Shown: positions 118-52,064 of the stretch, piece after piece | How the letters are laid out: each line of letters opens with the position of its first letter | How positions within the stretch are numbered: the stretch's first letter is position 1 | Notes under the pieces: generated by a model | What the model was told of the DNA's origin: nothing | The model's input: only the letters and a program-made list of their open reading frames with translations | The model's database searches: none | Made by a program: the position numbers and the translations under genes | Source of the DNA: Halalkaliarchaeum sp. AArc-CO | Lineage (GTDB): Archaea; Halobacteriota; Halobacteria; Halobacteriales; Haloferacaceae | DNA length: 64,000 nt | Assembly: GCF_024972735.1 (NCBI RefSeq) | Contig: NZ_CP087723.1 | Location: 2,790,001 to 2,854,000, forward strand | Direction of reading: 5' to 3'

Positions 118-169
118 TCCCTCGACTATTCGTTCTCACTTCGTTCGAACAGAATAGTCCCACCAGGAT
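118..169. repeat. 52-bp direct repeat, distal copy of a tRNA-Gln 3'-end unit
   Basis: This copy matches 234..285 with a single mismatch. It contains the last ~15 nt of the tRNA-Gln gene (on the minus strand) followed by a spacer with the element CTCACTTCGTTCG. Past the repeat the T-arm-like sequence continues, degenerate, to about 178. No complete tRNA can be folded here, so it is a partial duplication and not a second gene. Confidence 0.85.
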
Positions 170-181
170 ATCGAACCGGAA

Positions 182-220
182 CCAGACGTGCTCGCTCACC
201 CTCGTTCGCTGCGCGCGACT
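182..220. repeat. GC-rich core shared with the tRNA-Pro locus
   Basis: The core starts CCAGACGTGCTCGCTC and ends TCGCTGCGCGCG. Both parts recur at 51893..51930 next to tRNA-Pro. It lies between the two 52-bp repeats and can fold back on itself (CCAG-type ends). It is followed on the plus strand by a T-arm-like GGGCTCGAATCCC (226-238), opposite in orientation to the tRNA. Confidence 0.75.
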
Positions 221-233
221 GGTAGGGCTCGAA

Positions 234-285
234 TCCCTCGACTATTCGTCCTCACTTCGTTCGAACAGAATAGTCCCACCAGGAT
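234..285. repeat. 52-bp direct repeat, proximal copy overlapping the tRNA-Gln 3' end
   Basis: This is the proximal copy of the repeat at 118..169, offset by 116 bp. Bases 271-285 belong to the tRNA-Gln gene itself, so the duplication includes the tRNA 3' terminus plus its downstream flank. Confidence 0.85.
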
Positions 286-343
286 TCGAACCTGGGTCGC
301 GAGCCCCAGAAGCTCGCAGGATTGGCCACTACCCCATGGGACT
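271..343 (-). tRNA. tRNA-Gln (anticodon CUG)
   Basis: A 73-nt cloverleaf reads 5'-AGTCCCA at 343 and pairs with TGGGACT, with discriminator A at 271. The anticodon stem CGAGC/GCTCG encloses loop TTCTGGG, giving anticodon CUG (reads CAG). The T-loop is GGTTCGAATCC and no CCA is encoded. A CTAAAC TATA-like stretch at about 364-379 lies roughly 27 nt upstream on the minus strand. Directly downstream on the minus strand lies the tRNA-derived repeat unit. Confidence 0.93.
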
Positions 344-38800: not shown

Positions 38801-40156
38801 ATGAAACCAGCTACGATGAAAACAGCGGCGCTTCTGATGTCGCTGATGATGTTGCTTCCGATGGCAGGTGCCGTCGGGGCCCAGGAACAACCGCCCGCAG
38901 CAAACGTCCCGGACGAGGCTGGCGCTGCGGTGACGTTCTCCGACCAAGTATCTGATGGAATGACGGTCACCGTCGACGCAGTGAACACGACCGACGGCGG
39001 TTTCGTGGCGATTCACGACAGCAGCCTCCTCGAGGGAGATGCCGTCGGTAGCGTCGTCGGCGTCTCGCCGTACCTCGAGCCGGGACTTCACGAGAACGTG
39101 ACAGTCCAACTGTTCGACGTCCCGGGTGGGGACTACGACACGACTGAACTCACTGAAAACCAGACGCTGATTGCGATGCCCCACCAGGACACGAACGCAA
39201 ACCAAACCTACGACTTCGTCCGCACGAACGGCGCGGTCGACGGGCCGTATCTCGATAACGAGACTCCGGTGACTGACGCCGCGAACGTCACCGTCGAGCC
39301 GGCGGAACCCACCACGGGCGAGTCGTTCGACGTGTCGGAGCTGACGGCGCCTGAGCTCGTCGAACAGGGTGACGAGGTGCAAGTCAACGCGACTATCACC
39401 AACCCCAACGACGTCGCCGACACCCAGGAAGTCGAATACCGGTTCGACGGCGAGGTGCTCGTCCGTGAGCAGATCAGCCTCGAGCCGAGAGAGTCGACGA
39501 CGTTTACGACAACGGTCAACACGACAGAGAGGGAGATGGCACTCACGTTCCACGGCGTTTACACGAGAGACCGTGGAGCGGGCGACCAGATCAGGATCGT
39601 TGAGGAGATACAGTCGTTCCACGTGTCGAACCTGACGGCGCCGGAAACCGTCTCGGTCGGTGAGAACCTCACCGTGACCGCGACAGTTACCAACCCGAAT
39701 GAGTTCGCGGCCACACAGCCAGTCCAGTACCGCTTCGACGGGAATCTCGTTGAGACACAAAGTGTGACCGTCGACGGGGAGGACTCCGAGACAGTCGAGT
39801 TCCAGATAGCAACCGATGATCTGGAACTGGGAACCTACATCCACAGCGTCTTCTCGATCGACTTCGGACAGAATGCGCTGATTACTGTGGATACCGTCGA
39901 TGAGGCTGACGAAGGTGACGAGGCTGACGAAGGTGACGAGGCCGATGAGGCTGACGAAGGTGACGAGGCTGACGAAGGTGACGAGGCCGATGAGGCTGAC
40001 GAAGGTGACGAGGCTGACGAGGCCGATGAGGCTGACGAAGGTGACGAGGCTGACGAAGGTGACGAGGCCGATGAGGCTGACGAGGGCGACGAGGTTGACG
40101 AGGGCGACGAGGTTGACGAGCAGGACGAACAGGAGACGGAAGAAACGGAGGAGTGA
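38801..40156 (+). CDS. secreted surface protein with DUF7282-like and CARDB-like domains and acidic repeat tail
   Basis: A 451-residue exported protein. The signal peptide is about 1-27 (KTAALLMSLMMLLPMAGAVGA). A DUF7282-like domain follows (about 35-160, with VSDGMTVTVDAVNTTDGGFV). Two CARDB-like beta domains come next (about 170-260 and 270-360, each with VNATITNPNDV or VTATVTNPNEF). The last about 85 residues are tandem Asp-Glu-Ala-Asp-Glu-Gly units. Many NxT/NxS sites suggest N-glycosylation. There is no PGF-CTERM or lipobox, so how it stays at the surface is unclear. TTTTAC near 38771 gives a leaderless ATG at 38801. Confidence 0.8.
   Translation: MKPATMKTAALLMSLMMLLPMAGAVGAQEQPPAANVPDEAGAAVTFSDQVSDGMTVTVDAVNTTDGGFVAIHDSSLLEGDAVGSVVGVSPYLEPGLHENVTVQLFDVPGGDYDTTELTENQTLIAMPHQDTNANQTYDFVRTNGAVDGPYLDNETPVTDAANVTVEPAEPTTGESFDVSELTAPELVEQGDEVQVNATITNPNDVADTQEVEYRFDGEVLVREQISLEPRESTTFTTTVNTTEREMALTFHGVYTRDRGAGDQIRIVEEIQSFHVSNLTAPETVSVGENLTVTATVTNPNEFAATQPVQYRFDGNLVETQSVTVDGEDSETVEFQIATDDLELGTYIHSVFSIDFGQNALITVDTVDEADEGDEADEGDEADEADEGDEADEGDEADEADEGDEADEADEADEGDEADEGDEADEADEGDEVDEGDEVDEQDEQETEETEE
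39901..40114 (+). repeat. tandem 18-bp repeat in the coding tail
   Basis: The unit GAGGCTGACGAAGGTGAC alternates with GAGGCCGAT over about 210 bp. Copies are nearly identical at DNA level, including synonymous positions, so the array arose by recent slippage or unequal exchange. It encodes only Asp, Glu, Ala and Gly (Val near the end). Confidence 0.9.
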
Positions 40157-51659: not shown

Positions 51660-51690
51660 TCCTGCGCTCTTCGTTCGCAGGGGTAATGGG
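51660..51690. repeat. degenerate third copy of the tRNA-Pro downstream hairpin unit
   Basis: CTCCTGCG...TTCGTTCGCAGGGGTAATGGG resembles the spacer of the 78-bp repeats (51841-51870). It is separated from a degenerate T-arm copy (GGGCTCGCGCGGATTGTGAACC, about 51744-51765) by the short tandem repeat. It is an older, eroded copy of the same unit. Confidence 0.5.
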
Positions 51691-51739
51691 GTGGGATAGA
51701 GGGGTGGATAGAGGGGTGGGATAGAGGGGTGGGATTGGG
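51691..51739. repeat. 13-bp tandem minisatellite
   Basis: GTGGGATAGAGGG is repeated about four times, with one copy missing a G and the last ending GTGGGATTGGG. It lies inside the eroded repeat unit, which suggests slippage within non-coding DNA. Confidence 0.8.
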
Positions 51740-51810
51740 AACTGGGCTCGCGCGGATTGTGAACCTCGCCAGCGAGCTTCCCTCGCTTCGCTCGGGACTC
51801 CTCGCTGTCT

Positions 51811-51888
51811 GGTTCAAATCCGGCTCGCAGAAACTCACCCACTGCTCACTTCGTTCGCAGGGGTGATGGGCTCGCGCGGATTTGAACC
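51811..51888. repeat. 78-bp perfect direct repeat, distal copy (tRNA-Pro 3'-end unit)
   Basis: Identical over all 78 bp to 51936..52013. It runs from an inverted T-arm half (GGTTCAAATCCGG, plus orientation) through CTGCTCACTTCGTTCGCAG to the tRNA-Pro 3' end (TGGGCTCGCGCGGATTTGAA, minus orientation). Each unit is thus an inverted repeat of the tRNA end around a spacer with a hairpin. Confidence 0.92.
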
Positions 51889-51892
51889 GGAT

Positions 51893-51930
51893 CCAGACGT
51901 GCTCGCTCCCTCCGGTCGCTGCGCGCGTCT
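51893..51930. repeat. GC-rich core shared with the tRNA-Gln locus
   Basis: CCAGACGTGCTCGCTC followed by CCTCCGGTCGCTGCGCGCG. The first 16 bases and the GTCGCTGCGCGCG-type end match 182..220. It fills the gap between the two 78-bp repeats exactly where the core lies at tRNA-Gln. Confidence 0.8.
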
Positions 51931-51935
51931 GACAG

Positions 51936-52013
51936 GGTTCAAATCCGGCTCGCAGAAACTCACCCACTGCTCACTTCGTTCGCAGGGGTGATGGGCTCGC
52001 GCGGATTTGAACC
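51936..52013. repeat. 78-bp perfect direct repeat, proximal copy overlapping the tRNA-Pro 3' end
   Basis: Second copy, offset 125 bp from the first. Bases 51992-52013 belong to tRNA-Pro itself. Complete identity over 78 bp implies recent duplication or gene conversion. Confidence 0.92.
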
Positions 52014-52064
52014 GCGGTCAACGGCACCCAAGGCCGCAAGTATACCAGGCTAACCCACGAGCCC
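51992..52064 (-). tRNA. tRNA-Pro (anticodon UGG)
   Basis: A 73-nt cloverleaf. Acceptor GGGCTCG (52064 side) pairs with CGAGCCC, with discriminator A at 51992. Anticodon stem GCGGC/GCCGT encloses loop CTTGGGT (UGG, reads CCA). The T-arm is CGCGGTTCAAATCCGCG. A GTTTTACACC element about 27 nt upstream (52092-52102) may be the TATA box. Its downstream side is the repeat array. Confidence 0.9.

Follow-up and report, generated by a model that had tools for sequence, protein, structure and literature searches.

Hairpin arrays at the T-loop of tRNA genes in Halobacteriales: candidate small mobile elements with tandem amplification

Behind tRNA-Pro of Halalkaliarchaeum sp. AArc-CO (genome G000), we found a tandem array in which copies of the tRNA 3' end alternate with two kinds of hairpin and with inverted copies of the T-loop. 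The same anatomy is linked to tRNA genes elsewhere in this genome and is spread across the order Halobacteriales. One of its hairpins (H2) is exchanged, and the units change in number, between congeners; the same H2 occurs at different tRNAs, each time with arms of the local tRNA; and on one plasmid a hairpin module is cleanly inserted in front of T54 of a tRNA gene. We consider, with a probability of about one half, that the array is made of small mobile DNA hairpins, non-autonomous and targeted to the T-loop of Halobacteriales tRNA genes, together with tandem amplification.

Anatomy of the array behind tRNA-Pro

The stretch of DNA analyzed, referred to as the window, comprises 64,000 bp of a haloarchaeal chromosome (G000:C2:2790001-2854000), and the positions below count from its first base. 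T denotes the tRNA 3' end from the T-loop on, T' the inverted T-loop, and H1 and H2 the two hairpins. The parts of the array are as follows.

51992-52064, minus strand: tRNA-Pro(TGG), called by ARAGORN and matching Rfam RF00005 with 56.4 bits
51992-52011, minus strand: first T of the array, from the T-loop to the 3' end of tRNA-Pro
51946-51991, minus strand: H1 hairpin of unit 1 (TCACCC CTGC..GCAG TGGGTGA)
51938-51945, minus strand: T' of unit 1, the local T-loop inverted (GATTTGAA)
51887-51937, minus strand: H2 hairpin of unit 1, type A (CCCTGTCAGACGCGCGCAGCG..GCACGTCTGGATCCGG), with about 20 relatives in its own genome; fold z = -4.1
51867-51886, minus strand: second T copy, 20 nt of the local tRNA 3' end (TTCAAATCCGCGCGAGCCCA), 20/20 identical
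51821-51866, minus strand: H1 of unit 2, with the same sequence as in unit 1
51813-51820, minus strand: T' of unit 2
51764-51812, minus strand: H2 of unit 2, type D
51743-51763, minus strand: third T copy, with an extra C in the T-loop (TTCACAAT)
51662-51690, minus strand: eroded H1 remnant past a 13-bp minisatellite, 90% similar to H1

Read on the tRNA strand, the order is T - H1 - T' - H2 - T - H1 - T' - H2 - T, with T consisting of 20 nt (the T-loop TTCAAAT, the 3' half of the T-stem and the acceptor strand). The first-pass annotation had described perfect 78-bp copies behind tRNA-Pro. Two direct repeats (51811-51889 and 51936-52014, spaced 125 bp) are indeed 100% identical and are accompanied by eroded pieces, one of which is a recurrence of the 16-mer TGGGCTCGCGCGGATT at 51743-51758, but each repeat measures 79 bp rather than 78 bp. 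A perfect repeat of this length does not arise by chance. The hairpin and inverted T-arm that had been ascribed to each unit were confirmed: four inverted repeats (I1-I4) are 93-100% complementary, and, when folded as single-stranded DNA, T-H1-T' reached z = -6.1 and T'-H2-T z = -3.1 to -4.1 relative to dinucleotide-shuffled sequences. The first-pass annotation had overlooked that the stretch separating the two 79-mers is a conserved hairpin too (H2) and that many further tRNA genes are followed by the same arrangement. Whereas H1 and T' are the same in both units, the two H2 hairpins (types A and D) are only 61% identical.

At the far end of the array, before the last H1-like remnant, lies a 13-bp minisatellite (GGGGTGGGATAGA) of 3.8 copies (51688-51735). 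The extra C that distinguishes TTCACAAT from TTCAAAT in the third T copy is also seen in array copies at Thr-TGT, Phe and Trp of the congener G001, and it would leave an unpaired base in the T'/T stem. Elsewhere in the window (39898-40120) tandem repeats of 9/18/27/45 bp (GAGGCTGACGAAGGTGAC) are densely packed and may encode an acidic repeat.

The arrangement at other tRNA genes and in other genomes

A second tRNA gene of the window is occupied in the same manner.

271-343, minus strand: tRNA-Gln(CTG), called by ARAGORN
119-270, minus strand: its array, with H1 (236-270), T' (228-235), type A H2 (176-227), a T copy (155-175) and a second H1 (~119-154)

When H2 was searched against its own genome, ~20 copies were returned, nearly all directly behind tRNA genes, and inspection of all tRNA 3' flanks of G000 revealed the same anatomy at about half of them. 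A whole-genome search with a T'-H2-T pattern (GGATTYGA-N28-58-TTCRAATCC) gave 24 matches, of which 23 sit 31-553 bp downstream of a tRNA gene in the same orientation, within ~1% of the chromosome; the remaining match overlaps a tRNA gene. In G000, where ARAGORN called 44 tRNAs including one false call, 20 of them are followed by direct copies of the local 3' end; the corresponding figures are 17 of 43 in the congener G001, 15 of 44 in genome G003 and 28 of 57 in genome G038, the last being inflated by a dense tRNA cluster. Two matches without a called tRNA nearby, in G001 and G003, adjoin, by eye, a truncated tRNA-Leu and an uncalled tRNA-like sequence. In every array read, the units were gene-free and ~85-180 bp long. 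A known RNA family was considered and rejected, as Rfam returned tRNA only, plus the tRNA-like mascRNA under its cut-off.

The spread of the pattern was surveyed in 393 genomes of the phylum Halobacteriota (81 Halobacteriales and 312 others). At least one T'-H2-T match was present in 77 of the 81 Halobacteriales, with 472 forward matches and a maximum of 26 per genome; among the others, 17 of 312 had one or two matches each. The reversed pattern, used as a control, gave 0 matches among the 81 Halobacteriales. A strict type A pattern run over the genome contigs was too tight and returned only two matches. Since H2 is found at other tRNAs and in other species, a purely local duplication of tRNA-Pro is out. 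The earlier view of a local, tRNA-Pro-derived array is too narrow: the T and T' arms are local, but H2 is not derived from tRNA-Pro and is common to several tRNA loci and species.

Plasmid-borne tRNA genes also carry such elements. On a plasmid of Haloarcula halophila, a 69-bp insert with a type A H2 divides tRNA-Cys exactly between G53 and T54, and ~4 bp (CGGT) flank the insert. A normal tRNA-Cys(GCA) results when the flanks are joined, and even with the insert in place the gene reaches a tRNA score of 36.9 bits. An archaeal tRNA intron seems a less likely explanation of this insert: by eye, its internal loops are opposite one another and are not the offset bulges of a BHB motif. A plasmid of Natronorubrum bangense carries a tRNA-Val with a complete unit. 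The Haloarcula halophila plasmid holds ~22 tRNA genes in 3 kb, and a similar cluster lies near 2.635 Mb in G038.

Local arms, exchangeable hairpins and turnover

In direct copies chosen by their match to the tRNA part after position 60, identity with the tRNA was 0.15-0.45 at positions 47-51, 0.82 at position 52 and 0.99-1.0 from position 53 through the T-loop. Identity starts sharply at 52-54 and continues to the tRNA end, and therefore the joint is the T-loop. The inverted copies are local as well. Base R57 of T' agreed with the local tRNA in 93% of 81 cases, compared with 51% when the genome's other tRNAs were used. The total match of T' to the local tRNA was 854, and 2000 permutations gave a mean of 747 (sd 11.6) and a maximum of 787. 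This agreement extends across the T-loop and reaches two to four bases past it.

A second class of joint was also observed, in which some 3'-end copies start near tRNA position 60/61. Here an inverted acceptor stem and a direct acceptor copy accompany a hairpin (TTACCCCC or TAGTCCC ... GGGGATCC or GGGACTCC), and the class occurs at Arg-CCG, Arg-CCT, Arg-GCG and Gly-TCC of G000, at Arg-CCG and Lys-CTT of G001, and at Ala of G038. In G001, tRNA-Val(GAC) is directly followed by a CRISPR-like array with GTTTCAATCCCGTGCTGGGTTTTCTCCC repeats, located ~150-300 bases behind the gene.

The H2 module is ~28-65 bp long and has conserved arms and a variable tip. Pro of G000 and Lys-CTT of G001 have exactly the same 47-bp core of type D (AGACAGCGAGGAGTCCCGAGCGAAGCGAGGGAAGCTCGCTGGCGAGG), from which the copies at Trp and Pro of G001 differ by 1 and 2 bases, respectively; each copy is flanked by the arms of its own tRNA, and H1 differs among these loci. 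Between the Asp arrays of G000 and G001, H1 is 99% identical and H2 50%, and one Gly array has the same H1-T' with two H2 types in the order A, other, A. The occurrence of the same H1-T' with different H2 hairpins in the Pro, Gly and Asp arrays indicates that H2 is swapped as a module. H1 modules too recur at different tRNAs, and the arrays are therefore mosaics.

A 30-bp motif resembling the type A core (GCGCGCAGCGACC..GAGCGAGCACG, also written GCGCGCAGCGACC..GAGCGAGCACGGAGCGG) recurs on plasmids and, on two of them, adjoins a TFB gene without a tRNA. Two plasmid matches and a match on contig C1 of G000 were dropped as array members, having only this motif in common and lacking tRNA context.

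Array presence, copy number and H2 type vary between congeners. At Leu-CAA, G000 carries four units and G001 a single one, with a downstream flank that is 91% identical; Pro has two units in G000 and one in G001; and for Thr-TGT and His, alignment offsets point to ~three extra units in G001. The differences at Leu-CAA and Pro bear out the recent duplication that had been proposed from the perfect identity of the tRNA-Pro copies, and copy number is not constant between these genomes, contrary to the outcome that the first-pass annotation had named as a refutation (a constant number of copies, with purifying selection limited to the tRNA part). In an occupancy table compiled by hand, the overlap of occupied tRNAs was not significant for any pair of four genomes (Fisher p 0.12 to 1.0), and seven tRNA types were occupied in none of the four. 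That occupancy is not significantly common to the genomes favors gain and loss of the arrays over a host function that is fixed.

The inner stem of H2 was examined in 28 dissimilar arm pairs, which formed a mean of 5.18 bp; re-paired arms formed 3.86 (sd 0.17), and the observed value was reached by 0 of 2000 re-pairings. The H2 arms thus co-vary, indicating that the hairpin is preserved while its sequence changes. By a motif rule, the orientation of H2 relative to the tRNA was constant in 29 of 30 scorable cases; one type A element, at Phe of G038, is reversed and falls outside the scoring of this rule. The array of the window also has a strong predicted RNA fold.

Candidate mechanisms and relation to known systems

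If the arrays are mobile hairpins, an H2 module would insert, or be swapped, at the T-loop of the local tRNA or of its 3'-end copy. Each unit would bring 20 bp copied from the tRNA 3' end (from T54 onwards), which would keep the tRNA intact, and an inverted T-loop, with which T'-H2-T could fold and rebuild a double-stranded T-loop site. Whole tandem units would be gained and lost, and arrays would grow and shrink. The moving would be done by a recombinase acting at the T-loop heptamer, perhaps on a folded single strand like integron attC or CTXphi attP. A recombinase would be the simplest agent to assume: the T stem-loop and tRNA 3' ends already serve tyrosine integrases of archaea and bacteria (PMC8371274), and folded T'-H2-T has the layout of a folded recombination site, with outer paired boxes, an asymmetric unpaired spacer, inner paired boxes, a variable tip and a fixed orientation. 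A module arriving from another tRNA should bring foreign arms, yet the arms are local, so that a further step, conversion or selection for pairing, would be needed. No enzyme gene, circular form or fresh insertion was seen in the arrays and genomes studied, and a search of G000 for the integrase domain PF00589 gave seven matches, none within an array. We regard as unlikely a wider reading, according to which a recombination system common to the order Halobacteriales uses as its sites tRNA T-loops that single-stranded DNA rebuilds by folding (T'-H2-T), and captures and shuffles hairpin modules in the arrays behind tRNA genes; archaea would then have their own equivalent of integron attC arrays, anchored at the tRNA gene.

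A serious rival needs no dedicated enzyme: palindrome-driven replication errors, namely template switching and slippage at the hairpin-rich 3' flank of the tRNA, would copy the tRNA end in both orientations, direct and inverted, and short-tract conversion would spread hairpins between loci. It is serious because the local identity of T' follows more directly from it, and it accounts directly for the match of both T' and T to the local tRNA, for the perfect tandem units and for the second joint class near 60/61. We nevertheless judge it somewhat unlikely, as replication errors leave unexplained why one 47-bp H2 core is unchanged at different tRNAs in two species, why the joint is nearly always the T-loop, and why the arrays are restricted to Halobacteriales although hairpins and the T-loop sequence occur more widely. 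Improbable in our estimate is that the arrays are scars of tRNA-targeting integrative elements, left as att sites and bits of attP arms by repeated integration and loss through tyrosine integrases. The direct copies resemble attR in their identity from the crossover to the tRNA end, and tyrosine integrases use the tRNA T stem-loop or 3' end in the bacterial T-loop class and in the archaeal SNJ2, pNOB8 and SSV types (PMC8371274). However, the ~85-180 bp units are without genes and each contains an inverted T-loop, the same H2 stands at many different tRNAs, and a tRNA-Thr with an integrase ~0.8 kb downstream lacks an array, its 3' end is not repeated anywhere in the 16 kb that were searched, and it thus offered no link to the hairpins. 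A viral or phage carrier was not found either: a phage search gave no match, and five patterns run on viral contigs returned nothing relevant, the three matches of the loosest being unrelated.

The compensatory changes that preserve the hairpin, the pairing of T' with the local T, the fixed orientation relative to the tRNA and the strong RNA fold of the window array would suit a host RNA function, in which hairpins in pre-tRNA trailers steer termination or 3' processing or yield a small RNA and T'-T pairing is selected. This seems to us quite improbable, given that presence and H2 type vary between congeners, that occupancy is not significantly shared, that seven tRNA types are never occupied in four genomes, and that there is no Rfam family. 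Very improbable, finally, is that H1-T'-H2 transposes as one element into the tRNA 3' end and duplicates 20 bp of its target, whether by a casposase/Cas1-like enzyme or otherwise. The T copies match the local tRNA exactly and stop where it stops, as a target duplication would, and the tRNA is left intact, but H2 differs between units with identical H1-T', so that H1-T'-H2 is not one mobile unit; only ~4 bp (CGGT) flank the plasmid tRNA-Cys insert, and the unit ends are not mutual inverted repeats.

The arrays share features with several known systems and differ from each. Like tRNA att sites of tyrosine integrases, they have a joint at the T stem-loop, a 3' end restored by a copy with the displaced copy downstream, and a duplicated 3' end, with identity running here from a fixed crossover (52-54) to the tRNA end. 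Unlike them, they have no integrase or cargo between copies, the ~85-180 bp units leaving no room for a gene, and they combine an inverted T-loop per unit and the same hairpin at many tRNAs with tandem units of ~100 bp. Integron attC and CTXphi attP are recombination sites formed by a folded single strand, and T'-H2-T resembles them in its outer and inner paired boxes, unpaired asymmetric spacer, variable tip, fixed orientation and array layout. In contrast to attC, however, the boxes are GGTTCRAAT / ATTYGAACC, from the tRNA T-loop, and not GTTRRRY / RYYYAAC (the fourth base is C, not R), and, unlike integrons, the arrays are anchored at a tRNA gene and those read contain no cassette genes.

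The tyrT (rtT) repeats behind tRNA-Tyr of E. coli are 178 bp long and include 19 bp from the 3' end of the tRNA. Compared by layout, they too are tandem repeats behind a tRNA, each with a 3'-end piece, but they occupy one or few loci, whereas the arrays described here occupy about half of a genome's tRNA genes, occur in most species of an order, and contain an inverted T-loop as well as a hairpin that is shared between loci and can be exchanged. MITEs and REP/BIME elements are likewise short, gene-free, palindromic, multi-copy and non-autonomous; they differ from the present elements, which show strict tRNA T-loop targeting, local arms and no known transposase ends. As to the ends, the inverted arms are tRNA-derived, ~4 bp (CGGT) flank the plasmid insert and a parent transposon was not found; unlike REP, the elements are restricted to tRNA 3' flanks. 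Casposons target and duplicate tRNA 3' ends, as seen here, but they are kilobase elements with Cas1 and terminal inverted repeats, and the present units, which carry no gene, show none of these traits.

In the open-access full-text literature, outside which most subscription journals and preprints lie, we found no description of such tRNA-linked hairpin arrays. They apparently constitute an undescribed, order-wide family of small mobile-looking elements at one point of many tRNA genes, an architecture that stands behind about half of the tRNA genes of Halalkaliarchaeum sp. AArc-CO and is present in almost all of the Halobacteriales species in the sample. Should the modules move by T-loop recombination, the arrays would represent a new recombination site and a model for small non-coding elements that inhabit essential genes harmlessly, and they would allow a direct test of why insertions favor tRNA 3' ends.
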